In this document: positions 2,679-21,093 of the stretch, one piece after another
Position numbering within the stretch: position 1 is the first letter of the stretch
Layout of the letters: each line of letters begins with the position of its first letter
DNA from: a virus
Virus record (IMG/VR): IMGVR_UViG_3300046337_000126
Coordinates: 1 to 21,093 of that record
Reading direction: 5' to 3' (one strand)
DNA length: 21,093 nucleotides
Made by a program: the position numbers and the translations under genes
The notes under the pieces: model-generated
Seen by the model: the letters and a program-made list of their open reading frames with translations, nothing else
The model's database searches: none
Told to the model about the DNA's origin: nothing

Positions 2679-3446
2679 TTATCCTACACTTGCTATGATT
2701 GCATCCAAAAGGTCGGGGTCAGTAGCCTCTAATTCATCAATTAAGGCTTGTCTATCCCAATCTTCTCCTTCGTAAAGGAAGATTACTTTCTTGCTGAAAG
2801 ATACGGTCTTGGCAACATAATCAGTTATCAATTTCTTTCTTTGAACAGCCTTGTTTACCATCTTTAAAACATCCTTTCCTCCTAATGTTTCAATAACACT
2901 TAGGATAGCAGAAGCCTTGGTATCAGCAAGGTCATATAACCCCTCTTTGCCAACTACATTAAGTGCGGTGCCTAACTCTTTAACCTCTTCCGGATTTAGG
3001 TTTTGAATCATAGACTTAACCTTAATGGTAGTCTCTTTTGACTCCAATCTTTCAGCATCTTCTTTCTCTGGGTTAAGCTCTCTGAAAATTGCTTGCTTTG
3101 ATGGGTCTCTGTGAATATTACTTGCGTTGAAGTTTGACCATTTGAAGAACTTGTAAATTACTTCATGTCTAATATTACCACTCTCTAACACCATTTTACC
3201 CCCCGATTGTGGTAAGAACATTAAGTCAAACTCATAATTCGGTGTTCCATCTATACCGAAACTTAATACAGAACCTATCTCGTACATCTCTCCTTCGAAG
3301 ATAATAACGTCTTTAGGTGGTATAAGTGTTAATGGGATAATCTTTAACCCTTTATTTATAGGGTCGTCAGCGATGCTTAATAGTTCAAAAATTACTTGTT
3401 TACCTTTTGGAATTTTTGTTTCCTTAAATTGCTTAAAATCGTTCAT
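2679..3446 (-). CDS. Putative head-to-tail or capsid-associated structural protein
   Basis: A protein of 255 aa that I do not recognise by family. The first ~100 residues are rich in beta-type segments (GKQVIFELL, KDVIIFEGEMYEIGSVLSFG). The remainder is charged and mostly helical, with a lysine-rich stretch near 200-225 and an acidic C-terminus. There is no signal peptide or membrane segment. It lies between the major capsid and tail-fibre genes on the same strand, the usual place for head-completion, neck or capsid-decoration proteins; that role is from position only. The start is preceded by TTTAAACAAATAAC, the A/T leader seen before many genes here. A hairpin terminator separates it from the capsid gene, so its transcript level is likely lower than that of the capsid. 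Confidence 0.7.
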   Translation of the reverse strand: MNDFKQFKETKIPKGKQVIFELLSIADDPINKGLKIIPLTLIPPKDVIIFEGEMYEIGSVLSFGIDGTPNYEFDLMFLPQSGGKMVLESGNIRHEVIYKFFKWSNFNASNIHRDPSKQAIFRELNPEKEDAERLESKETTIKVKSMIQNLNPEEVKELGTALNVVGKEGLYDLADTKASAILSVIETLGGKDVLKMVNKAVQRKKLITDYVAKTVSFSKKVIFLYEGEDWDRQALIDELEATDPDLLDAIIASVG

Positions 3447-3497: not shown

Positions 3498-4817
3498 TTA
3501 CGCTTGAATTTTGAAAACACCTAACTTCTTAGGGTCGATTATCTCAACACCTTCTTGGCTGTAAATATCACGTCTGTACTCTCTAGTATTGTTGGTCTTG
3601 CCAGGAGACAATGCACCAGTCTCAACCTCCATATACTTTAGTGATTTTTTGCCATCAAATGCCATGTATCTATTTCTGATTCTAGGAACAGAAGCACCCC
3701 CTTTAATCATCGCCTTGTCTGTAGGAAGCAAAAGGATCTCTTTCTTAAATGCTTCATATCCTACTGCACCCGTCAATCCCTTATGCTCCAAAGGCTTAAA
3801 TCTTTGAATGTGTAAGGTATAACCACCAAATCTTATTGACTTTGCACCGAAAGCTAAAGAAATATCTTTACTACCATTATAGGCTGCATAAGAAATTCCA
3901 CCACCCGAAAAGGCTGCGTTAGTTGCTGCGTTTACGTCAATTGCCAAGTGAGCCGTTTGACCCGCCAAAGCCATATATTCTGTTCCGCAACGAGCTGCAT
4001 CCATTAATACCGCAAGGGCTCTACCATCAACAATAATGTCAAAAGTTCCAGAAGAAGCAGTTTGTCCTGTAAAACCAGTGCCATTTGCAGTAGTTCTAAT
4101 TCCCTCTGTAAAGTAGGTCATCTTTCCATCAGCAGCAGCAAAACTATCCTTTACTCCAAATATCTTTTGGTTAGCTACTTGCATTCTATGAATCAATAAT
4201 TGTTGAGCCAATACTTTGTCCAACATATAGTACTGTCCATTGTACTCAATCTCTACCTTAGTAGCACCTCCAATATCTGTAATAGAATCTCCAGACTCAA
4301 ATATTTGGATGTTGTTTTGACGCTTCAATAGAGTTGGTTGTCTTACATCCGTAGAGTTTGAACCACCTTCACCACCAGCATTTGATAAGATAATCAAAGA
4401 CATTGCATCAGTAGTCGCAGGAATGTTTGTGCTACCAATTGGCTTAACCACTACATCCCAGTTTGAACTATTAGCAGTAACAGACCACACAAAACCAGTT
4501 ACACCGTTTGGAAACAAGATTGTCTCTCTTACCCTTGGAACAGCAGCAGTTCCCAAGAACACGATAGTTTTATTTGCATTTCCAGTTCCTAAGGTAGTAG
4601 TACCTACAGTAGTTGCTATCGACTGCACTGTATCTTCCTCAAGGTGGTCAAAAACAGGAACTCCTGTAATCTCTTCTCCACCAGACATCATATCCATCCA
4701 ATCAAAGTAGCCCATTTCGTCTCTGTAAGCATCTACGTACTTAGCTAAGACTTGTCTTTGAGCAAAACCACTAGCTAGAGTGGCTATTCCGTTTATCGTT
4801 ACATTAGTATTTGCCAT
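3498..4817 (-). CDS. Major capsid protein (probable)
   Basis: A protein of 439 aa, rich in Ala, Gly and Thr, with no signal peptide or membrane helix, starting MANTNVTINGIATLASGFA. Residues ~20-60 (QRQVLAKYVDAYRDEMGYFD) look like an N-terminal arm followed by a helix. The rest alternates beta-rich and Gly-rich stretches, and the C-terminal part (RNRYMAFDGKKSLKYMEVET) is basic. I assign it as major capsid from position and size: it lies directly after an acidic scaffold-like protein, downstream of terminase and portal, and is flanked by a strong promoter upstream and a strong terminator downstream, as expected for the most abundant virion protein. The HK97 fold is expected for tailed phages but I cannot see it directly. 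The start is preceded by AGAAAAAAGAA, an A-rich leader without a Shine-Dalgarno site. Confidence 0.75.
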   Translation of the reverse strand: MANTNVTINGIATLASGFAQRQVLAKYVDAYRDEMGYFDWMDMMSGGEEITGVPVFDHLEEDTVQSIATTVGTTTLGTGNANKTIVFLGTAAVPRVRETILFPNGVTGFVWSVTANSSNWDVVVKPIGSTNIPATTDAMSLIILSNAGGEGGSNSTDVRQPTLLKRQNNIQIFESGDSITDIGGATKVEIEYNGQYYMLDKVLAQQLLIHRMQVANQKIFGVKDSFAAADGKMTYFTEGIRTTANGTGFTGQTASSGTFDIIVDGRALAVLMDAARCGTEYMALAGQTAHLAIDVNAATNAAFSGGGISYAAYNGSKDISLAFGAKSIRFGGYTLHIQRFKPLEHKGLTGAVGYEAFKKEILLLPTDKAMIKGGASVPRIRNRYMAFDGKKSLKYMEVETGALSPGKTNNTREYRRDIYSQEGVEIIDPKKLGVFKIQA

Positions 4818-6018: not shown

Positions 6019-8355
6019 CTACTCTTTTTTATCTGTTTCTGCCTTAATCCCCTCTTTAATTACGTCACTTTGGGTTTCTACAGCCGTTTTTTGTGCTACT
6101 GACTGTGCTGACCTATCAGAACTATATATCTTAGCATCTGCTTGTAGCTTATTTCCATCTACTCTTCCGGTTACTTCTATTTCCTTCATGTACACTTCAA
6201 ATCCGTACTTTTCTCTAATTATAGTCAGTTCTGCTTCTGTGCTAATCTTCTTAAACTCCACATCCAACGAATGTTTGGCTTGAAGCTCTTGCATCTTTGA
6301 CTCTGTAGCTGCTTTTGCAGATTCAATCTGTGAGCGCATAGCCATCTCTTGATTCTGAATAGTTCTTTTTTGTTGTTCTTCTGCATTCTCTTCTACTCTA
6401 TTCGCAAGTACAGCTTCGGCTTGCTTTAAGTTTTTAACGTTTTCTACTACAAAGGAATCCGCTATAGTGATTTGGTTGCTCTGAATTGCTAAAGCGACTT
6501 TTTCTTGTAACCTTTGGTACTGTGCATCCGTAGGTTCGTCTCTTACCTCAATTCCAAGCTCTCTAGTGGTATAATTTTCTCCGAACTTAAAGAAGTTTAT
6601 ACTTTCTTCTCCTATTGCATTGATGTAGTTGTCGAGTCTTCCATCTTCCGCAGCATCTTGTACTCTTAGTAAAAGTCCGGTGGCTAGAGATTCAAAACAA
6701 GTTCTTTCTGCCCTTGCCATGTACTCAATACTATTATTAGTACTTTCACTTGCTCTTTCGGCTACAGCTTTAAGTGTTCTTTCGCCTGGCGTGCTTCCAT
6801 CAGTCAAGTCGTTAAACCCTCCTATCTGTTGGAATAAGCCTATGCCGTTCTGAATTTCGTTAAAGTATCTACTTGCTTCATCTCCTAAGCCGTTGTTTAG
6901 TTCGGTTATAGGTGCAGACCTACTAAAGCTACCGTCTTCTTTTATAGAGCGATAGATTAAGCTACCCGTCTTTTTCCAGAAGTCATACTGTTCAATAGCC
7001 GTTAGTGATTGTCCACCTTTACCGATAGGAACGTTTTCTAAAGCGGTAATATCGATTAGAATACCCTTCTTTTTAGCATTTACGATAACGTCTTGGTACT
7101 TCATAAAGGCAATTTGCACTACGTCAACGATAGGAATGTAGTTTTCTGACATCCCCCTGGTTTCCATATTGTCAAGATTCGGAGCAAATACGTGGTAGCA
7201 CGACTGAACATCAGCTAGATTATTTGCCGCCCTTTTCATATCTGTCTGTATTCCACAACCAAAATAGATGTCTGTTCCTATTACCCACTTTGCAGTGTAC
7301 TTAACTGGATAGTCAGTAGTCTTATAGTCAGAACCCTTTTCTATATAATTGACACTTTTCACCCTCTTGGTCTTTACCTCGTTTCCTAACTTGTCTTTTC
7401 CAAACTGTACTACGTAAGAATCTTCTCCGTCAAACTCTATATCCAATACCTTTACTCTTTCGTTTTCGTAGTCCTTTGGATCAACGTGACTCTTATCGAA
7501 ACTTTCATAAGAGTAAGTGCTTCCTCTCTTTTTAAATAGTTCTACGTATTGTTCTTCCCGAATCTCTTTCTTTATATCTAATTGTTTTAAGTCTCCTATG
7601 GTATAGTCTAATACTTCGCCACGATAGAAAGAGTCTCTAAAATCAGAAAACCTACAACGGGAAACAATAAAATCTCTTACATCAACAAAGCGTTCTTTTA
7701 TATCTCCATTAATATCTACATAGTCCTTATATCCAATGAAGCCGTAATCGTGAAGTTGCTCTATGTTCATTTGCCTTATAGCATCATGCCCACAGTTGTT
7801 CATAATTATAGCTAAGATTTGCTCGGCCTTAATCTCATAAGCAGACTTATAGCCATACTTCATGTATATGTCTAGTTGCTTTTGAGTCTTAAACCCTTGG
7901 TCGGGTGCTTCAACAAGGTCTTCCGGCATATCATTCTCCACAAGGGTTTTCCTAAGTTCTATCTTGGACAAATTTCTTGCGTAGTACTTATTCTTTTCTT
8001 CTATTGAGATTGGATCTATTGCAGTTAGGTTGATGCCGTAAGAGTTCTTGAGTAGTGTGGTCTTAGTCATCCTTGCATACTTAGACACAATAGGCAAAGG
8101 CTCTTTAACTGCTTTTAACCATGACTTATCTGCATTGGCCGAATCAATATCTAGTAGATTAAAGTATTTAGCCATGTCCTGTCTACCAGTCATGTACCTT
8201 CGAATATTGCTGTATCTATCTCTTCCGTTGTAGAAAGATTGGGTATTCATACTGTTCCAATCAGACCAACAAGCCTTGATATAGCTTTGAATCCAAGTTT
8301 TGCTACCTCTGTTTGGGTCTAGTGGGGATGGGAAAGAAGTGTTTTTGTCTATCAT
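6019..8355 (-). CDS. Portal protein (probable)
   Basis: A protein of 778 aa when started at ATG 8355 (MIDKNTSFPSPLDPNRGSK). An ATG at 8385 is possible but would overlap the terminase gene by 29 nt. The ATG at 8355 sits one base past the terminase TAA (TACTAAAATG), a common coupling arrangement, so I prefer it. The protein is large, soluble and mixed alpha/beta, without membrane segments. The last ~130 residues are a long charged helix rich in Gln, Glu, Lys and Ala (EENAEEQQKRTIQNQEM onward), as in portals of large podoviruses. Order is the main evidence: terminase large subunit immediately upstream, scaffold and capsid immediately downstream. The portal forms the 12-subunit ring at one vertex through which DNA is packaged. 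The length resembles portals of crAss-like phages, but I cannot confirm membership. Confidence 0.8.
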   Translation of the reverse strand: MIDKNTSFPSPLDPNRGSKTWIQSYIKACWSDWNSMNTQSFYNGRDRYSNIRRYMTGRQDMAKYFNLLDIDSANADKSWLKAVKEPLPIVSKYARMTKTTLLKNSYGINLTAIDPISIEEKNKYYARNLSKIELRKTLVENDMPEDLVEAPDQGFKTQKQLDIYMKYGYKSAYEIKAEQILAIIMNNCGHDAIRQMNIEQLHDYGFIGYKDYVDINGDIKERFVDVRDFIVSRCRFSDFRDSFYRGEVLDYTIGDLKQLDIKKEIREEQYVELFKKRGSTYSYESFDKSHVDPKDYENERVKVLDIEFDGEDSYVVQFGKDKLGNEVKTKRVKSVNYIEKGSDYKTTDYPVKYTAKWVIGTDIYFGCGIQTDMKRAANNLADVQSCYHVFAPNLDNMETRGMSENYIPIVDVVQIAFMKYQDVIVNAKKKGILIDITALENVPIGKGGQSLTAIEQYDFWKKTGSLIYRSIKEDGSFSRSAPITELNNGLGDEASRYFNEIQNGIGLFQQIGGFNDLTDGSTPGERTLKAVAERASESTNNSIEYMARAERTCFESLATGLLLRVQDAAEDGRLDNYINAIGEESINFFKFGENYTTRELGIEVRDEPTDAQYQRLQEKVALAIQSNQITIADSFVVENVKNLKQAEAVLANRVEENAEEQQKRTIQNQEMAMRSQIESAKAATESKMQELQAKHSLDVEFKKISTEAELTIIREKYGFEVYMKEIEVTGRVDGNKLQADAKIYSSDRSAQSVAQKTAVETQSDVIKEGIKAETDKKE

Positions 8356-8356
8356 T

Positions 8357-10384
8357 TTAGTAAAAACTTTCTGCGTTATAAACAACTTGTTTTGGCTGCT
8401 CTTGTCTAGTTGTTCCTTCGGTTCTCTCTACAAATGAACCAAGTAACGCCCATCCTGCTGCCATTGCTGCATCAAATTTAGTAGAATTTTTTAAATTAAA
8501 CTTATTCCAATCCAATAAAAGTTTCATAAATGGAACTTTCTGTATATTATCACGTATATAAATGCTTGTAGAGTCGGCTGCGGACTGTTTATTTTTAGTT
8601 GAAGCAGGGACTCCATCCGTATGCCCGTCAAAACTAGCAACAAATTTGGACATTCCAGAACTATTTAAGTAATTAATTAGCAATTGCTTGTTATTCTCTA
8701 CTAAAATTTCTGCTCCAGACATAAATGCGAGTTTTGAAATGTCTTCATGGAACTCGTCAAGGTCTTCTGGCCGCATTAAGTATTCGGCAATAAAAGTTTC
8801 TGATAGTGGATTGCGTGGTTCGTACTTAAAGTATAGGTAAGCGGCTGCATTTGAACCCGTATATCCCTTCTTTACCATCTTATGGTCAAATGGGTCAACT
8901 CCTATCACTCTTTTTAAGGCGTTCTTAGGAATTACGTTCCCCCACATATCCTTAGTAGTGTTTTCTAACTTACACTCTGCTACTACATCAAATTTTTTAT
9001 TAATCCAAAACCTTCCATCCTTAGATTCTACAAAGTCAACACCACTAAGCCTTACATTATTCTTCCAAACAAAGTTTCCTCTTATTAAAAGGTCTTCCTT
9101 ACTCAAGGACATTAGAGCAGATTTAGCATTTTCAATGGCTATTTGGTCATAAATACCTTCATCTGATGGTGTCCAGAATGCTTCTTCTACATTTAAAGGG
9201 TATTTACGGATAAAAGAAACTCTTGAATTAGTGTCTGTTCCAAATGATTCTCTCCAATTCTCTAAGGTGATTCTATTTTCTTCTATATTTGGTTCTCCAT
9301 ACTCGTTATAGCTATAAGCACGTTCAGCACTAAGGAAATAACGGTACATTCCGGACTTTGTTTCATTGATACGTGGGTCTTTGGTTAAGTGATCTGATTC
9401 ATCCCACAATTTCTGAAAGTTTCCTTCATCATAACTGTCAAAATCTCCAATATCTTCTACAGTAGTGGTTGCAAGTACCTTTCCTGCTATCTTTCCATTC
9501 CTAAATAGGGCTGGTTTTACTATGTAGTGTCTATCGTAAGCGGAAGCGTGTTCTACCTTTCCACATTCATCATCAACTTTAAGTAAAAGTGTTTCTCCGT
9601 CATAGGCTCCTTCTGCGGAAGACCGGTAATCTATTTCTGATACTAATTCTTTTATGTCGTAGTTGTCTATATTGTCTTCTGATGAACGACTAGAAGTCTT
9701 ATTGAAAGAAATTTTATTCTTGGGAGTACTTCCTAGAGTAGTGTCCATTACGGGCTTAAAAATTCTTTCTAATTTCTTCATAGGGTTTACTACCTGGAAA
9801 GAAAAAAGTCTTTTAGCATCAATATCTGCTTTGCTTTGTATTCCGCTTTTAGCTTCTTTTGCCCTTGAAGTTCTGTACCATATTGTACACCCTGCCCTTA
9901 CTGATTTGCCTTGTTGCCTTTGAGTAATCTCAAGCATACCGTAGGATTTAGGGTCATTCCAACAGTACTCCCAGAAGTAATGCCACTCTACGTCTGTGGT
10001 TCTAAAGTCGGGGGACAATCCTTTAATGCTCCAGTGACATAAGAAGAAATAGTGTTGTCCTGTAAGGTAGATTGCTTTGCCTTTGAGATAAAACCAAAAA
10101 CCATTCGTTGTTCTATCCCACTCCCTTTCTCTGTAAATCTGTAAGTCTCTGTCAAAGAAGTCGGGGTCTACCTTTCTTCTTGTGTGTTCGTCATCGAGTC
10201 TTCTTTTAACGTTATGCGGTTTCTTAGGTATCTCCCAGCACTGCTCTTTTATCTTGTCGGAACGAGAGAAAACGCCCCTATGTTCTACTTGCCCTGTGAA
10301 TTGGTTGAATACGTAGCCTTCTGGGGGTAGATTTACTATTAACCCTTGAATATCTAATTTATCACCTCCAATGTCTTTATACAT
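8357..10384 (-). CDS. terL: Terminase large subunit (packaging ATPase and nuclease)
   Basis: A protein of 675 aa. Visible motifs in order: a deviant Walker A, TQRQQGKS (~154-161); Walker B with catalytic acid, LLLKVDDE (~266-273); coupling motif ATTTVED (~305-311); then an RNase H-like nuclease domain with acidic residues in VIGVDPFD (D497), VENNKQLL (E563) and STKFDAAMAAGWALLG (D638). This is the standard two-domain layout of phage TerL, which drives DNA into the prohead and cuts the concatemer. An N-terminal region of ~120 residues before the ATPase core is rich in aromatic residues and longer than in many TerL proteins. The gene overlaps the upstream 197-aa gene by 8 nt and is followed at once by the portal gene. 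The family is clear; I did not assign a packaging type. Confidence 0.93.
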   Translation of the reverse strand: MYKDIGGDKLDIQGLIVNLPPEGYVFNQFTGQVEHRGVFSRSDKIKEQCWEIPKKPHNVKRRLDDEHTRRKVDPDFFDRDLQIYREREWDRTTNGFWFYLKGKAIYLTGQHYFFLCHWSIKGLSPDFRTTDVEWHYFWEYCWNDPKSYGMLEITQRQQGKSVRAGCTIWYRTSRAKEAKSGIQSKADIDAKRLFSFQVVNPMKKLERIFKPVMDTTLGSTPKNKISFNKTSSRSSEDNIDNYDIKELVSEIDYRSSAEGAYDGETLLLKVDDECGKVEHASAYDRHYIVKPALFRNGKIAGKVLATTTVEDIGDFDSYDEGNFQKLWDESDHLTKDPRINETKSGMYRYFLSAERAYSYNEYGEPNIEENRITLENWRESFGTDTNSRVSFIRKYPLNVEEAFWTPSDEGIYDQIAIENAKSALMSLSKEDLLIRGNFVWKNNVRLSGVDFVESKDGRFWINKKFDVVAECKLENTTKDMWGNVIPKNALKRVIGVDPFDHKMVKKGYTGSNAAAYLYFKYEPRNPLSETFIAEYLMRPEDLDEFHEDISKLAFMSGAEILVENNKQLLINYLNSSGMSKFVASFDGHTDGVPASTKNKQSAADSTSIYIRDNIQKVPFMKLLLDWNKFNLKNSTKFDAAMAAGWALLGSFVERTEGTTRQEQPKQVVYNAESFY

Positions 10385-10970
10385 TTTTCTTCGCTAGTTC
10401 TATTGCTTCTACAAAGTCTTCTAAGCAAAAGTTTATTATCTGTTTGGATTTTTCTGTATTGTCTCCGAATATCTGATTTTCTAATTTGTCGAGTTGTGGC
10501 ATAATAACAGTAGTGTTAGCTGCCGACAATTTGTTAACGGTTTCTTGCTCTTTTGCGTCTCCACCACCGGAGAATATCTTTAAGTTATTGGCCCAGAAAT
10601 TCTGCTCTAGTGCTACGTATGCAGCCCAATTTCTATCTGATTGGTACTTAACATAGTAGTGGACGATAGCAATTGCTCTATCGTCCTTTAATCCTACTGC
10701 ATCTTCCATCCCTTTAGAGCTTTTAAACCCTGCTGTGGATAGTGCTAACTTCTTTCTTTCATCTATTGGTTCTTTTTTTATAGGGCTGTTCTTGTCATAC
10801 ATTAATGCCGTATAAATCAGCATTGAGTTGTCGTTTCTATTTATGGATTTGTTTGACTTGGACATACTTTTGTTAAACTCTCTGTAAATAGAAGCTATTA
10901 TAAGGAGTTTTGACGGGTCGCCATCATCAATATCTAACAGCATCAAGCCGTTGTTCTTTATTTTATCCAT
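10377..10970 (-). CDS. Unrecognised protein in the small-terminase position
   Basis: A protein of 197 aa, mostly helical and charged, with no membrane segment. Residues 1-40 (IDDGDPSKLLIIASIYREFN) and 85-130 (KDDRAIAIVHYYVKYQSDR) look helical. A Gly-rich loop SGGGDAKEQET (~132-142) precedes a Thr-rich turn and a C-terminal helical part ending in FVEAIELAKKNV. It overlaps the start of the terminase large-subunit gene by 8 nt, which is where the small DNA-recognition subunit of terminase normally sits. I see no clear helix-turn-helix, so the small-terminase role is only an inference from position. It could also be another head-assembly factor. Confidence 0.6.
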   Translation of the reverse strand: MDKIKNNGLMLLDIDDGDPSKLLIIASIYREFNKSMSKSNKSINRNDNSMLIYTALMYDKNSPIKKEPIDERKKLALSTAGFKSSKGMEDAVGLKDDRAIAIVHYYVKYQSDRNWAAYVALEQNFWANNLKIFSGGGDAKEQETVNKLSAANTTVIMPQLDKLENQIFGDNTEKSKQIINFCLEDFVEAIELAKKNV

Positions 10971-11717: not shown

Positions 11718-12317
11718 TTACAACACGGCATTTAATTGAAAGGGTCTAAAGCAATAGAAAAACTGTCCTTCTATCTCATTTTCAAAATTAATACTATTTC
11801 CTTGAACTGTATCTCCTACCGAAACAATGGGTTCTTGGTCTACAAAATTACTGAAATATTTCACAATAGCCCTATCTTCGTAATACTTGTTATTAAAATC
11901 TACTTCTAAACCCCTAATCGAATGTTTCTGTTCCATTACCTTTTCTCCTAACATCCATTCGCCTACGGGTATAATTTGTCCTTCTCTGACTATGCAGATA
12001 ACATCTCTGTACGGTACTCTGACAACCCTTTTGCCATTGTCAATGATGTTAACGTCACCGTCATTGTTTACGTATCTAAAGTAGGCTATGTCTCCTTCTT
12101 TAATAATTGGGTCAATCTTGTACTGTACTTTCTTGCCATCTTCTACAGTTTCATCAAAAGGCTGAATAATGGGTAGTGATGTAACTACTCCACTGTAGCG
12201 GATATTTTGAGTAGGGTTGTAGCCAGTTACCATGTGAAGGGTAAGGCTTTTGTGAGTGATTGTGTCTACGTACTGTCCTTCTGTTGACACTAAAATATAT
12301 GCTCCTGTTGCGGTCAT
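11718..12317 (-). CDS. Tandem GroES-like (Cpn10) co-chaperonin protein
   Basis: A protein of 199 aa that reads as two consecutive GroES-type folds. Repeat 1 (~5-118): GAYILV, a variable loop (~18-40), GVVTSLP, PIIKEGDIAYFRY, then VPYRDVICIVREGQIIPV; this matches the GroES order RVLVKP / mobile loop / GxVVAVG / VKVGDxVLF / EYLILRExDILAV. Repeat 2 (~118-199): GEWMLGEKV, a loop with GLEV, then AIVKYFS, PIVSVGDTVQG and GQFFYCFRPFQLNAVL. Repeat 1 ends where repeat 2 begins, as in the double-domain chloroplast Cpn20. Phage co-chaperonins such as T4 gp31 replace host GroES so that GroEL can fold the capsid protein. The location among morphogenesis genes fits that. Repeat 1 is reasonably clear, repeat 2 is more diverged; activity is inferred. 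Confidence 0.65.
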   Translation of the reverse strand: MTATGAYILVSTEGQYVDTITHKSLTLHMVTGYNPTQNIRYSGVVTSLPIIQPFDETVEDGKKVQYKIDPIIKEGDIAYFRYVNNDGDVNIIDNGKRVVRVPYRDVICIVREGQIIPVGEWMLGEKVMEQKHSIRGLEVDFNNKYYEDRAIVKYFSNFVDQEPIVSVGDTVQGNSINFENEIEGQFFYCFRPFQLNAVL

Positions 12318-13835: not shown

Positions 13836-14507
13836 TCAACTCTTCTTTAGTGCCGGTGTTTCTTCCTTAAATTTGAGTATATTATTAATTAATAAAAACT
13901 CTTCTCCAATCCTTCCTCTAACAAACTTACAACTTAATTCTTTTTCTATAAGACATTGTCGGTCAATATCAGCACTTTTCATAAACTTAGACTCGTGATA
14001 AGATTCATCAAACTCAACACATAGATTTAGACTTTCGAAATAATAATCAACCCTATAATTTAATACTTTGTATTGTGCTATGAAAGGGGTGATTCCAGAA
14101 AATACAATAGAAAATAGCTCTGTACATCTATTTTCAAAACCAAATGGCACAATTGTTTCTTTGTTATTAAACAACCTATCTTCAACATAATTAAAAATTT
14201 CTTCGTGAACCCATACGCATTTAGTACTTCTTGCTCCTGTTGTAATCTGGAACCCATTTTCTTTTAAATAAGCTGAACCTATGTTTGGTGGCATGTGAAC
14301 TCCAAAAGTCCCTTCAAACCAACTTCTAAAACTCATACTCAAAAGAATTCTTCCTATATTTTTTTCTACCCATCCATTTTCACCCCTTGCTTGAGTATAG
14401 GCTTCTCTCAAATCAGATAAGTTTAAGAATCCAGTTTCTTTTTCTTTTCTGATTAATATTCCAAACAAATTCCTATCTTCTTTTTTTATCACAATGCTTT
14501 GTTTCAT
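13836..14507 (-). CDS. KilA-N-like domain fused to a PD-(D/E)XK nuclease
   Basis: A protein of 223 aa. Residues ~26-112 resemble a KilA-N DNA-binding domain: GFLNLSDLREAY, KNIGRIL, then G-STKCVWVHEEIFNYVEDRL. Residues ~125-215 resemble a small restriction-type nuclease: ALNYRVDYYF-like beta strand with D154, then NLCVEFDESYHE (E165 with nearby D167 and H171), and DIDRQCLIEKELSCKFVRGR. This matches the DUF559/Vsr-like layout that I know from phage proteins with NRDIEY..RQ..I...L.C.FIR. KilA-N proteins are often antirepressors or regulators in phages, and fusions to nuclease domains are known. Catalytic residues look intact. The gene overlaps the upstream 48-aa gene by ATGA. Target and role (host DNA degradation, mobile-type endonuclease or regulation) are not determined. 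Confidence 0.65.
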   Translation of the reverse strand: MKQSIVIKKEDRNLFGILIRKEKETGFLNLSDLREAYTQARGENGWVEKNIGRILLSMSFRSWFEGTFGVHMPPNIGSAYLKENGFQITTGARSTKCVWVHEEIFNYVEDRLFNNKETIVPFGFENRCTELFSIVFSGITPFIAQYKVLNYRVDYYFESLNLCVEFDESYHESKFMKSADIDRQCLIEKELSCKFVRGRIGEEFLLINNILKFKEETPALKKS

Positions 14508-14910: not shown

Positions 14911-15128
14911 ATTATATTATTTAAATTGTTTTCTTCCATAAACTCTTCATACTTTCTCCAAGCCTCTACTTGCCCCTTTGTTATATCGGGGTCGCAAGGA
15001 CATTCCTCTATAATCTTTTCTGCCAATTCACACCTCTTATACAAATAGTAGCACACCTTTAAAAGTTCTTGAACTTCTGGTTCTTCTAGGAGGTGGGTGT
15101 TGGCGTTGAATAGTTTTTCGTAGTTCAT
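14907..15128 (-). CDS. Small hypothetical protein
   Basis: A protein of 73 aa, acidic and helical: EEPEVQELLKVCYYLYKRCE, then a CPCDPDITKGQVEAWRKYEE segment and EENNLNNII at the end. The two nearby cysteines (CPC) plus two earlier ones could in principle bind a metal, but the spacing is not a known motif. It overlaps both neighbours by 4 nt (ATGA), so it belongs firmly to this operon. Function unknown. Confidence 0.6.
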   Translation of the reverse strand: MNYEKLFNANTHLLEEPEVQELLKVCYYLYKRCELAEKIIEECPCDPDITKGQVEAWRKYEEFMEENNLNNII

Positions 15129-15661
15129 TTCTTAACTGTTTTAAATCCCTTAATATCTTCTTTCTTTAAATGTGTAGCGTATTTTTTCAATCGGTTACCC
15201 TTAAAAAAGAAGAAGGGGTTAATCCAGTACACATCAACACTAAAGGATGCCCTATTCAATATCTTGTGTTCAACCAAATCAGCAACAGCACTGATATATG
15301 TCTCCGACCTCTTTATTCCCGACTCTTCCATATACGCATGACGGTTAATCCAAATCAAATCTACACCATGTTCAATCTTCTGTCCAATCCAATTCAATAA
15401 GTGATGACCTCTAGGACTCAACATCGCCAGGTGTAATCTTCTGTCAGGACTGCAATAAACTTTAACAAAAGAATCAGACTCATACAAAGCAGTATCAGAC
15501 ATAATAAAAGAATCATCTCCATCTCCTACACGAGTTTCTTGGCCTATAACATCAAAAGATTTGGCTTTAATAGTAAAGTCACTCAAGAACGGATTATTTA
15601 AAGCATTAGAATACTTTCGCAACTCGTCATCAGTGAAACCCTTCTTCTTACGAATACCCAT
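15125..15661 (-). CDS. RepL-like winged-helix protein, possible replication initiator
   Basis: A protein of 178 aa. The first ~65 residues are polar and variable. From ~66 on it looks like a winged-helix domain: FVKVYCSPDRRLHLAMLSPR, helix LLNWIGQKIEHG, IWINRHAYMEESG as recognition-helix lead-in, SETYISAVADLVEHKIL as the next helices, and the wing SVDVYWINPFFFFKGNRLKKY. The last element (VYWINP-FFFKG-R) is typical of RepL-type plasmid initiators and of related phage replication proteins. It is the first gene of the leftward operon and lies at the edge of the repeat-rich non-coding region, where an initiator would be expected next to its origin. A transcription regulator with the same fold is the main alternative. 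A TACCTTTG -7 element stands 23 nt upstream of the ATG. Confidence 0.6.
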   Translation of the reverse strand: MGIRKKKGFTDDELRKYSNALNNPFLSDFTIKAKSFDVIGQETRVGDGDDSFIMSDTALYESDSFVKVYCSPDRRLHLAMLSPRGHHLLNWIGQKIEHGVDLIWINRHAYMEESGIKRSETYISAVADLVEHKILNRASFSVDVYWINPFFFFKGNRLKKYATHLKKEDIKGFKTVKK

Positions 15662-15684
15662 ACTATTATTTCCGTTTTATTTCA

Positions 15685-15692
15685 CAAAGGTA
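15685..15692 (-). promoter_or_regulatory. -7 promoter element of the leftward operon
   Basis: On the minus strand this reads TACCTTTG, a full match to the Bacteroidetes -7 consensus TAnnTTTG, 23 nt before the ATG at 15661. No TTTG is found 19-21 nt upstream; instead a pair of 12-bp direct repeats occupies the -33 region, suggesting that a bound protein helps or blocks the polymerase. Confidence 0.55.
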
Positions 15693-15723
15693 CTAATAAA
15701 ATAGATATTATCTAATAAAATAG
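15693..15723. repeat. Pair of perfect 12-bp direct repeats next to the leftward promoter
   Basis: CTAATAAAATAG occurs at 15693-15704 and again at 15712-15723, 19 bp apart. The first copy touches the -7 element of the leftward promoter and the second covers the -33 region, so these look like operator or activator sites, possibly for the winged-helix protein encoded next to them. Confidence 0.6.
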
Positions 15724-15747
15724 TAATTATTTTTATCCTAATTCTAT

Positions 15748-15961
15748 ATTTACGGTTTTTTTCTTTTTGGCTTTTCTCACAACTGTCTGTTAGTAAGTTA
15801 ATTAACCCCCATTTTTTAATAATTCAAAAAGGCTATTAAGTAATACTATATAGCCCTTTTGAAAAATATTCAAAACAATAAAAAAAACATCACTGAATGT
15901 GTCTACCGCATCGTTTTTAGCCAAAAACAAAGATAAAACAAAACATAAAAAAACCGTAAAT
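15748..15961. repeat. Perfect 15-bp inverted repeat with distant arms
   Basis: ATTTACGGTTTTTTT at 15748-15762 is the exact reverse complement of AAAAAAACCGTAAAT at 15947-15961. The arms enclose 184 bp that include a separate stem-loop at 15823-15863. The CCGT core also recurs at 15971-16024. Confidence 0.55.
15823..15863. other. Stem-loop with 14-bp arms, possible two-way terminator
   Basis: TTCAAAAAGGCTAT (15823-15836) pairs with ATAGCCCTTTTGAA (15850-15863) with a single mismatch around a 13-nt loop. An A-run on one arm and a T-run on the other give it the form of a bidirectional terminator, though no gene ends nearby. A structured origin element is the alternative. Confidence 0.45.
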
Positions 15962-15970
15962 AAAGTGTTT

Positions 15971-16024
15971 TTACCGTTGAAACGCCCTCTACTTCATAAA
16001 AAAAGAAATTCTTACCGTTGAAAC
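15971..16024. repeat. Two 13-bp direct repeats, 41 bp apart
   Basis: TTACCGTTGAAAC occurs at 15971-15983 and 16012-16024. The GTTGAAAC end recalls CRISPR repeats, but there are only two copies, the unit is short, and no array or cas genes are present. Confidence 0.5.
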
Positions 16025-16412
16025 CCAATACACTTCCTACCCACACCAAATCTTATTATTGTTAAAAACTAATTATTTTATCAAAAATTGACAAATTCTA
16101 CTACCCTTCTTTTCCCATAATCCTTTACTATTTATTTACCACTTCCAAACCACTTCATATTTACTTGTCACACTTTATCATATTTTTAAATACTTCGCTA
16201 CAATCAATTTAAAATACAGAACGATACAATCTAAAGCCACTAACAAATAACGCTACCACGCCACTTAAAAACACCTTAAAAAGACTATTAAAAACAGGGG
16301 TATCAAAATTACCGCAATAACACAAAGTGTATTTGTCTGTTTTAGTTAATTTTATACCATATCACAAACTAATAACAATAAAAAAAATAAAACTTGAAAA
16401 AAATAAAGATGA

Positions 16413-16443
16413 TAGTTAAGGAAGGTAGTTAAGGAAGGTAGTT
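16413..16443. repeat. Tandem 13-bp repeat, 2.4 copies
   Basis: TAGTTAAGGAAGG is repeated head to tail at 16413-16425 and 16426-16438, then continues as TAGTT. It stands at the point where the strand changes from C-rich to G-rich. Confidence 0.6.
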
Positions 16444-16908
16444 CCAAAATAAAGATGTTAGTTTAAAAAAAATCTCAATGAAAATTAAAAAACTGTTAGA
16501 TAGTTGTTGAGTAGTTTTGAAAAAAGAACGAAGAAAAAAGGGTTGTGAAAAAGAAAAATAATTTAATTTACTAAAAAAAGTGATAGTCATTCAATAGCTA
16601 GTTTTTGATGTATTGAAGAAAAAAGAAAATAAATACAAATAATTAATTGCTAGATTTTAACGCCTGAAAGGATGAATGTAAATAGTTGAAAGAAAAAGAG
16701 TTAAGAGAAAAAAGTATCTGGAAGCATGAGGTAGATAGAAATGTAAAGCATTGAAAAAGAGATGATTAAAAGAAAAACTATTGAAAAAAAAGAGCTAGAA
16801 GGATGAGATAGCGAGGTTATATATATACGATCACCACCATCCCTGTCATCGGGTTCCACAATAATTTCACCTCGTCCCTCTCAATTTTACTTTTCACTTT
16901 TCGTTTTC

Positions 16909-16961
16909 AATTAGATATTTAGTCACTTATCTAATTATATATTTAGTCGCTTATCTAATTA
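16909..16961. repeat. 24-bp-period direct repeat with a dyad
   Basis: A 23-bp unit containing TTTAGTC(A/G)CTTATCTAATT is present at 16915-16937 and 16939-16961 with one difference. In front, AATTAGATA (16909-16917) and TATCTAATT (16928-16936) form a 9-bp dyad with a 10-bp spacer. It resembles a regulator-binding or iteron site. A related sequence, TTAGATAAGACTAA, occurs in the opposite direction at 17268. Confidence 0.6.
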
Positions 16962-17088
16962 TTATTATTACAATTATTATTATTATTTTTTTTTAATCTT
17001 TTTTATGATATTGTTTTTTTTATTCATTTCTTTTTCGCATGGGAAAATTCTGTAATAGTAATACTATCATCTTTGTTAGTTTTACTAC

Positions 17089-17142
17089 TAGTCTATCAAT
17101 TTAATAGAGTAGTAATAGTCTATCATTTTAGTAGAGTAATCT
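17089..17142. repeat. 27-bp tandem repeat, two diverged copies
   Basis: TAGTCTATCA-(A/T)-TTTA-(A/G)-TAGAGTA is found at 17089 and again at 17116, a period of 27 bp with 22 of 27 positions the same by eye. The partial dyad CTAT...ATAG inside each copy suggests a protein-binding unit. Confidence 0.5.
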
Positions 17143-17208
17143 ATTATTATTATTTTAAAAAGTTTTTGTTATTTTATTTGTAATTGTAATTACTAATCGT
17201 TATTCGCG

Positions 17209-17224
17209 TGTATGTGCACATACA
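17209..17224. promoter_or_regulatory. Perfect 16-bp palindrome
   Basis: TGTATGTGCACATACA is its own reverse complement and lies 22 bp before the 22-bp iteron-like array. It contains GTGCAC and is richer in G+C than the surrounding DNA, so it is unlikely to be a chance product of A/T composition. It is probably a site for a dimeric protein. Confidence 0.5.
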
Positions 17225-17245
17225 TATATATTTTAAGGTTAATTG

Positions 17246-17311
17246 TTAGATGACTCTAACTTTGGAATTAGATAAGACTAATAATATTTTTAGACAAGAC
17301 TAAATCTTATA
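17246..17311. repeat. Three iteron-like repeats at an exact 22-bp period
   Basis: TTAGATGACTCTAA (17246), TTAGATAAGACTAA (17268) and TTAGACAAGACTAA (17290) start exactly 22 bp apart, about two helical turns, so bound proteins would lie on one face of the DNA. The shared frame is TTAGA-N5-CTAA, with copy 2 and 3 differing at one base. Spacing and sequence are typical of initiator-binding iterons or of operators. A -7-like TAACTTTG at 17257 overlaps copy 1. Confidence 0.6.
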
Positions 17312-17590
17312 CCTGTTCATATATACTAATAATCTCCTTTATCTTTATTCTTAATCATTCTAATTCCCTTCCTCAATTCAATTATCTTTAATTCTATTCT
17401 ATTTCATTCAATTCTATTCAATCTATTACAATTCTATTCTTTTTTGTTCTATTCTATTATTATTGCTAGTATTCTTATTATCTATCTTTTTTACCCAATT
17501 TTTTAATCTTTTTTCAATTATTTTTATCTTTTTTGTACTATTCCTAGAAATTCATATAAACTTTCTAATATTTATAATCTTTTTTTAATT

Positions 17591-17598
17591 TATATTTG
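17591..17598 (+). promoter_or_regulatory. -7 element for the rightward genes
   Basis: TATATTTG is a full match to TAnnTTTG and is the last such site before the rightward genes. No TTTG is seen at the expected -33 distance, so the promoter may be weak or dependent on an activator. It would give a leader of about 110 nt before the small ORF at 17715. Confidence 0.45.
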
Positions 17599-17714
17599 CA
17601 AGGTATTTATTATTGTGCATATCTTTGTTTCAACAAAAGGGAACAACGGCAAAACATAGCAATAGCATAGTTCTTTAATTAAGTACCTTTTGATAAACAT
17701 TAAACATTAAGACA

Positions 17715-17777
17715 ATGCAGAAATTAAAAAGTACTATGCAGAAGGTTTATTTAATCAAATCTTTAATTATACACTAA
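17715..17777 (+). CDS. Possible 20-aa leader peptide
   Basis: ATG at 17715 encodes MQKLKSTMQKVYLIKSLIIH, stopping at 17777, one base before the ATG of the next gene. The start follows the leader AAACATTAAACATTAAGACA, the kind that precedes many genes in this arm. Basic N-terminus and hydrophobic C-terminus are visible. It could couple translation to the next gene or be chance. Confidence 0.35.
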   Translation: MQKLKSTMQKVYLIKSLIIH

Positions 17778-17778
17778 A

Positions 17779-20733: not shown

Positions 20734-21093
20734 ATGAAACATTTTAAACTAACATCAGAATTTGTAATAAACTCATTCAGCGTAAAGCTATTTAGAATAG
20801 AGGCAACAATAGACTCTAAGTATGTAAAAACTGGAGAAAAAGGGGGATTCATAGAAAAAGAAGAAAACCTTTCTGGCGATGCTTGGGTTTCTGGCGATGC
20901 TTGGGTTTATGGCAATGCTCAGGTTTATGGCAATGCTCAGGTTTATGGCAATGCTCAGGTTTATGGCAATGCTCAGGTTTATGGCAAGGCTCGGGTTTCT
21001 GGCGATGCTTGGGTTTCTGGCGATGCTCAGGTTTCTGGCAAGGCTCGGGTTTCTGGCGATGCTCAGGTTTATGGCGATGCTCGGGTTTTTGGC
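20734..21093 (+). CDS. Hexapeptide-repeat beta-helix protein (partial, cut at the right edge)
   Basis: ATG 20734 is preceded by TTTAAACAATTAAACAAA. The first ~45 residues (MKHFKLTSEFVINSFSVKLF ... KTGEKGGFIEKEENL) form a cap region known before such repeats, with the usual KTGEKGGFIE turn. From 20872 to the edge there are 12 full hexapeptides of the form (S/Y)-G-(D/N/K)-A-(W/Q/R)-V plus the start of a thirteenth. Repeats of this kind build a left-handed-type or polymer-forming beta-helix and are frequent in phages and prophages (YdcK-like proteins). The function is unknown; surface or virion attachment, or a scaffold, is possible. The stop is beyond the window. Confidence 0.8.
   Translation, partial: MKHFKLTSEFVINSFSVKLFRIEATIDSKYVKTGEKGGFIEKEENLSGDAWVSGDAWVYGNAQVYGNAQVYGNAQVYGNAQVYGKARVSGDAWVSGDAQVSGKARVSGDAQVYGDARVFG
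20872..21093 (+). repeat. 18-bp tandem coding repeat, 12.3 copies to the edge
   Basis: Units such as TATGGCAATGCTCAGGTT and TCTGGCGATGCTTGGGTT follow each other without gaps, four consecutive copies (20908-20979) being identical. Only a few positions vary (TAT/TCT, AAT/GAT/AAG, CAG/CGG/TGG), so copy number probably changes by slippage or recombination. Confidence 0.9.

Follow-up and report, generated by a model that had tools for sequence, protein, structure and literature searches.

A putative phage co-chaperonin with two tandem GroES-like domains, encoded upstream of the terminase gene in a flavobacterial podovirus-like lineage

Results

The product of a 199-aa gene (P0001) in a 21,093-base virus record, a fragment of a genome analysed here over its whole length (the window), was predicted to contain two Cpn10 domains in one polypeptide, as indicated by the sequences of its homologues and by a structure model. 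Sequence comparison of its relatives showed the double gene to be conserved beside the gene for the large terminase subunit (terL) and to be under purifying selection. The protein is likely a phage co-chaperonin with two GroES-fold domains arranged head-to-tail as in Cpn20, and would cap GroEL to help fold virion proteins.

Genomic context of the P0001 gene

ORF analysis placed the P0001 gene, with an ATG start, on the minus strand, which holds nearly all long ORFs left of position ~15,660; the plus strand opposite the gene is stop-rich. The gene order was P0001, a 236-aa gene, a 197-aa gene, terminase, portal, a 370-aa gene, capsid, a 255-aa gene and a cut tail-fibre-like gene (Table 1). A counterpart of the 236-aa gene was sought in the records of four relatives and none was found. 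By its position, the 197-aa gene is a possible small terminase or adaptor gene. The named relatives of the window terminase, from phages of Flavobacterium, Cellulophaga, Maribacter and Tenacibaculum, were 24-28% identical to it, which makes the window a distant member of that phage group; the host of the virus is probably one of the Bacteroidota.

Several other features of the window were recorded. The 255-aa protein encoded 3′ of the capsid gene (2679-3446, minus strand) matched Rad60-SLD at residues 185-251 below threshold (19.8 bits vs 23.8), probably by chance. A 223-aa protein (13836-14507, minus strand) showed a weak C-terminal likeness to DUF559/VSR-like endonucleases (18.0 bits, cut-off 20.6), and a 178-aa protein (15125-15661, minus strand) resembled plasmid RepL (PF05732, 20.1 bits, cut-off 20.3). 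The RepL-like gene adjoins an AT-rich gap of ~2.1 kb (15662-17778, GC 24-27%) that lacks any ORF longer than 53 aa, lies where minus- and plus-strand genes diverge and contains short direct repeats, among them 24-nt units at 16909-16966; it is a possible origin or control region. At the right end, an 18-nt tandem repeat (20870-21093, 12.4 copies, 89% matches) is cut off by the contig end; read on the plus strand, it gives hexapeptides of the VYGNAQ type.

Table 1. Features of the P0001 gene and its neighbourhood, numbered from the first base of the window.
Feature	Position	Strand	Basis
Putative tandem GroES-like (double Cpn10) co-chaperonin, 199 aa	11718..12317	-	ORF, homologues, AF2 model, Cpn20 match
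Predicted Cpn10 domain 1, residues 1-112	11982..12317	-	VIA 1p3h Z 8.4, 1g31 Z 6.7; hhalign 93.2%
Domain 1 mobile-loop equivalent, residues 12-41	12195..12284	-	Loop comparison; between model strands 7-11 and 42-47
Domain 1 roof-hairpin equivalent, residues 48-69 (strands 54-59, 62-67)	12111..12176	-	Model secondary structure; loop comparison
Probable interdomain joint: domain 1 last strand 106-111 and domain 2 first strand 114-117	11967..12002	-	Model secondary structure; head-to-tail Cpn20 match
Predicted Cpn10 domain 2, residues 114-199	11721..11978	-	VIA 8wuc Z 9.3; hhalign 97.9%
Domain 2 mobile-loop equivalent, residues 129-146	11880..11933	-	Loop comparison
236-aa gene next downstream of the P0001 gene	10988..11698	-	ORF
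197-aa gene directly upstream of terL	10377..10970	-	ORF
Terminase large subunit (terL)	8357..10384	-	PHROG 6681, E 5.5e-52; TerL of Flavobacterium/Cellulophaga phages
Portal protein	6019..8385	-	Synteny: portal gene position in L002-L006
Major capsid / virion structural protein	3498..4817	-	PHROG 13704, E 6.7e-11; synteny with Calle_1 major capsid gene

Sequence evidence for two Cpn10 domains

Searched alone, P0001 had no match in Pfam or among PDB sequences and nothing convincing among PHROGs, where no entry for PHROG 13932 came up at E<=1; tblastn against 50,697 phage records found nothing either, nor did an IMG/VR pattern search. The family was reached through terL, which led to named phage records and then to an alignment-based scan of IMG/VR. 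The terminase alignment gave 80 IMG/VR loci, picked by their terminase and not by the double protein. Among the ORFs of these loci, P0001 alone matched syntenic proteins in L010 (E 3e-17), L011, L009 and L014, with E values ranging to 6e-11, and an iterated search gathered 71 double-length members and 11 separate single GroES genes.

L010 and L011, both close homologues, each had two stretches recognised as Pfam Cpn10 (PF00166), with whole-protein scores of 32.0 and 49.9 bits (cut-off 21.1). In phi18:3, Calle_1, L018 and others only domain 2 exceeded the cut-off. At the level of sequence, P0001 is thus placed in PF00166 through its family, not directly. The pairwise hhalign comparison of P0001, as a lone sequence, with five named relatives gave a weak 0.7%, an uninformative value for a single sequence against a thin profile. 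A sister clade carries double proteins (L012:6583-7389, L013:8085-8954, L016:8198-9004) with an N-terminal extension of ~60-75 aa and an altered domain 2; Pfam Cpn10 was not recognised in that of L012.

Profiles of the two halves, built from the window's clade, were compared separately with a Cpn10 profile of 12 phage GroES genes from the terminase-chosen loci plus E. coli GroES. Domain 1 aligned at 93.2% over 87 columns and domain 2 at 97.9% over 86 columns; among 200 shuffles of the columns the highest values were 5.8% and 1.9%, respectively, and 0/200 came close. A recent internal tandem duplication was considered and rejected, since both halves scored closer to canonical Cpn10 (N-Cpn10 42.7, C-Cpn10 70.7) than to each other (N-C 31.5). 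The dN/dS ratios of the homologues were 0.05-0.37 across both halves, values that indicate purifying selection on each.

The original prediction, made from the letters of the window, had read residues 5-118 and 118-199 as two consecutive Cpn10 domains on the strength of the motifs GVVTSLP, IKEGDIAYF, ICIVREGQIIPV, WMLGEKV, GLEV, AIVKYFS and VSVGDTV. All of these are present in P0001, the proposed limits agree with those of the structure model (1-112 and 114-199), and the two-domain reading is borne out by Pfam matches of homologues, by the half-profile comparison and by the model. Separate profile comparison of each half, a check set beforehand, linked both to Cpn10. Neither half lacked the Cpn10 β-barrel in the model and the profiles did not lead to an unrelated virion family, the two outcomes named in advance as counting against the prediction.

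Structure model

An AF2 model of P0001 computed with 49 input sequences had a pLDDT of 83.6 and a pTM of 0.81. Foldseek ranked 7ekq_R first (E 3.7e-5), a chain named as a Cpn20 co-chaperonin subunit, and VIA-align superposed the two with Z 10.3 and rmsd 4.6 over 170 residues (range 1-199). Cpn20, offered earlier as a precedent, is therefore the best structural match over the whole chain. Structure prediction and matching of each half to GroES had also been proposed as a check; each half matched separate GroES-type chains, domain 1 M. tuberculosis Cpn10 (1p3h) and T4 gp31 (1g31), and domain 2 GroES (8wuc), with the scores given in Table 1. A separate model of L078, a distant family member, also matched 7ekq_R best (Z 9.3, range 1-183). 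In BFVD the top match was cpn10 of phi18:3. The model thus predicts the GroES β-barrel fold in both halves of P0001.

In GroES rings the last strand of each subunit pairs with the first strand of its neighbour. In the model the corresponding strands 106-111 and 114-117 lie two residues apart, so that the ring-type strand contact is probably made within one chain. The two domains would then probably sit as ring neighbours, as judged from the secondary structure and the structural match.

Loops and hairpins

In both domains a mobile-loop-type segment lies between the first two core strands. The domain 1 loop carries the motif KSLTL in P0001 and GSLTL or GGIEL in relatives, many of which fit GG-I-x-L/F. 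In domain 2 the nearest relatives have a loop of GroES-like length with a Gly-hydrophobic motif (SGIVM, SGLVT, SGIFM, GDLVV) and P0001 has RGLEV; model confidence was lowest in this loop (pLDDT 60 at residues 131-140). The loops of P0001 fit mobile loops in position and length, and the KSLTL and RGLEV motifs are better kept in relatives. The P0001 signatures are imperfect, with KS for GG in domain 1 and LEV or LTL for a contiguous hydrophobic triplet. A roof-like hairpin is present in domain 1 of P0001 and absent from most relatives and from domain 2 of P0001.

In the largest marine clade (e.g. L022, L026, L078) the domain 2 loop is ~18-20 aa long and the domain 1 loop, ~33 aa, is conserved. 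The short domain 2 loop suggests a division of tasks between the two domains, and contact of GroEL by both domains is therefore not a rule for the whole family. A link between the short loop and a phage-encoded GroEL, seen by eye in few lineages and with a counter-example in the Calle/phi38:1 genus, is suggestive only.

Distribution of the double gene and of partner GroES and GroEL genes

The double GroES gene was found upstream of terL in 64/64 loci with at least 1 kb of upstream sequence; the other 16 of the 80 terminase loci were left out of the count since their contigs end too near terL. Gundel_1, a complete relative and the outgroup of the terminase tree, had no double GroES gene. Among named phages the double protein occurs in phi18:3, phi38:1, Calle, elemovirus and Panino, and the named terminase relatives have a gene of 180-200 aa directly upstream of terL annotated 'co-chaperonin GroES' or 'chaperonin cpn10'. 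PHROG 13932, a 200-position profile named 'co-chaperonin GroES', matched 44/49 double-family members; L009, L010, L011 and L014, to which P0001 is homologous, matched almost the full profile. PHROG 13932 is the family of the double GroES protein.

It had been expected that a double form would be unusual in a phage assembly module. Instead, it is standard in this lineage at every terL locus that could be tested, and it was already present, as 'co-chaperonin GroES', in PHROG 13932 and in RefSeq records (phi18:3, Calle_1, elemovirus). 'Chaperonin cpn10' has also been listed among the core genes of Pervagoviridae (PMC8776804). We found no description of a tandem or double GroES in phages in the open-access journal literature searched; what appears new here is the tandem architecture, its universality beside terL at testable loci and the pattern of co-occurrence, in a family known to databases as GroES.

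GroEL genes were noted earlier in this phage group, in 36 marine genomes (PMC5332604). Of 24 lineage records searched, 23 carried the double gene and ten carried GroEL; all ten also had a single GroES and the double form, and three further records had a single GroES without GroEL. The separate single GroES proteins of double-carrying phages are 83-101 aa long. Only the double gene was found in the long records closest to the window, of 58.8 and 62.4 kb, and in the L018 record (59.5 kb); IMG/VR labels these genomes linear, and they may be incomplete. This nested pattern suggests that the double is a core piece and that single GroES and GroEL are optional. In the window's own clade the partner GroEL is likely that of the host. 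The L045 record (105,284 bases) has two double-GroES genes (40179-40787 and 101614-102180), one of which was read through a stop in the search, in addition to a single GroES and GroEL.

Discussion

The model of P0001 as a GroEL lid would predict that three or four copies assemble into a GroES-like dome, that the mobile loops of the domains attach this dome to GroEL as a cap, and that the capped GroEL assists the folding of virion proteins, those of the head or others, from the same late module, the capsid/virion protein of Table 1 being a candidate substrate. GroEL would be supplied by the host in the window's clade, and other clades would bring phage GroEL and single GroES. The seven positions may be filled by three doubles and one single GroES, or by three to four doubles with one position empty or excluded. 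We favour a working lid over a mere structural relic because relatives retain GroES-like domain 2 loops and because the substitution ratios point to purifying selection on both halves. Several observations weigh against a lid. The loop signatures of P0001 are imperfect, and the domain 2 loop of the largest marine clade is short. The double gene is retained in phages that have their own single GroES and GroEL, so the double is not simply the phage's GroES, and the complete relative Gundel_1 does without it. A role in capsid folding would fit the genomic proximity of the P0001 gene to the genes for capsid and packaging.

In a special case, the lid would work solely as a mixed ring, in which three doubles and one single GroES, of phage or host, give seven domains, an arrangement put forward for Cpn20/Cpn10 of algae and plants. 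Every record with GroEL does carry both a single GroES and the double, and hetero-oligomers of Cpn20 and Cpn10 are functional (PMC4242682, PMC5780408). However, the three long relatives with the double only would need to recruit host GroES, and At-Cpn20 and Pf-Cpn20 work as homo-oligomers (PMC3542282); we regard an obligatory mixed ring as unlikely. It is rather improbable that a GroES-fold protein was repurposed as a structural, scaffold or packaging part, for example in head completion or in association with the terminase, and does no GroEL work. The fixed place beside terL, the retention of the double in phages already encoding single GroES and GroEL, the shortened domain 2 loop of the marine clade and the imperfect loop motifs of P0001 would all suit such a part. 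Against it, gp096 of phi18:3 is not among the proteins that the record labels structural from virion MS/MS, gp089 of phi38:1 is labelled hypothetical only, and domain 2 loops of GroES length with Gly-hydrophobic motifs persist in the window's relatives. That P0001 is a generic small β-barrel protein with a coincidental likeness to GroES is hardly credible. In its favour, P0001 alone has no Pfam match, and medium-chain dehydrogenases, found further down the VIA list, contain a barrel of the GroES type. Against it, both halves match Cpn10 in particular, Cpn20 is the top match to the complete chain, and homologues score above the Pfam threshold for Cpn10, either at two sites or in domain 2.

For the lid reading, a broader scenario can be offered tentatively, as a possibility to which we lean less than to its alternatives taken together. 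A Cpn20-type lid may have evolved in phages outside the plastid lineage, breaking the seven-fold symmetry of GroEL with three to four doubles, or three doubles and one host or phage GroES, and forming a folding cage adapted to phage head proteins; the double would be the core of the lineage, and single GroES and GroEL later or optional.

The original prediction had asked how a double-domain cap could fit a seven-fold GroEL. Double co-chaperonins act either as tetramers in which one domain is left out or in rings mixed with Cpn10 (PMC3542282, PMC4242682, PMC5780408), and since these forms work, a double is not barred from capping GroEL. By analogy, the same solutions could apply to the phage protein. 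In the literature searched, chloroplasts and the Plasmodium apicoplast are the only sources from which fused double co-chaperonins have been described, and how an even number of domains caps seven-fold GroEL is still a question there. A widespread phage family adds natural examples, some of whose genomes also encode a partner GroES and GroEL and some of which do not, and models of homo- and hetero-oligomers therefore become testable in a simple bacterial system. The findings also point to a chaperonin requirement in the morphogenesis of marine Bacteroidota phages and correct annotations that read plain 'GroES'.

Comparison with known systems

The closest known proteins are the members of PHROG 13932 (phi18:3 gp096, Calle_1 gp13, elemovirus gp30, Panino CDS0088), which belong to the same family, measure 180-200 aa and are encoded directly upstream of terL. 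The window copy is divergent by comparison; it is separated from terL by two additional genes and has, in domain 1, a longer hairpin of the roof type, and the annotations of these members do not state two domains. Bacterial GroES and single phage Cpn10 share the fold of each half of P0001, domain 2 being the closer, but in P0001 the halves are fused. T4 gp31, which takes the place of GroES with GroEL in folding T4 gp23 (PMC3012670), and RB49 CocO are phage-encoded co-chaperonins of GroES fold, with which P0001 shares a presumed role in virion protein folding, and domain 1 resembles gp31 (Z 6.7); gp31, however, is a single domain of ~12 kDa that forms heptamers, whereas P0001 is a tandem double of 199 aa.

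For a long time chloroplasts were the only known source of double co-chaperonins; Plasmodium followed, and its Cpn20 can substitute for GroES in E. coli. At-Cpn20 is active as a tetramer (PMC3542282), and Cpn20 forms functional hetero-oligomers with Cpn10 (PMC4242682). Like P0001, chloroplast and apicoplast Cpn20 consist of two Cpn10 domains placed head-to-tail within some 200 aa. In contrast to Cpn20, P0001 is phage-encoded, 18% identical, devoid of a roof hairpin in domain 2 and of a transit peptide, short at its N terminus and located in a phage terL-portal-capsid module; plastid ancestry is not indicated. P0001 is thus built like Cpn20 but, not being the product of a plastid gene, is not classed as Cpn20.
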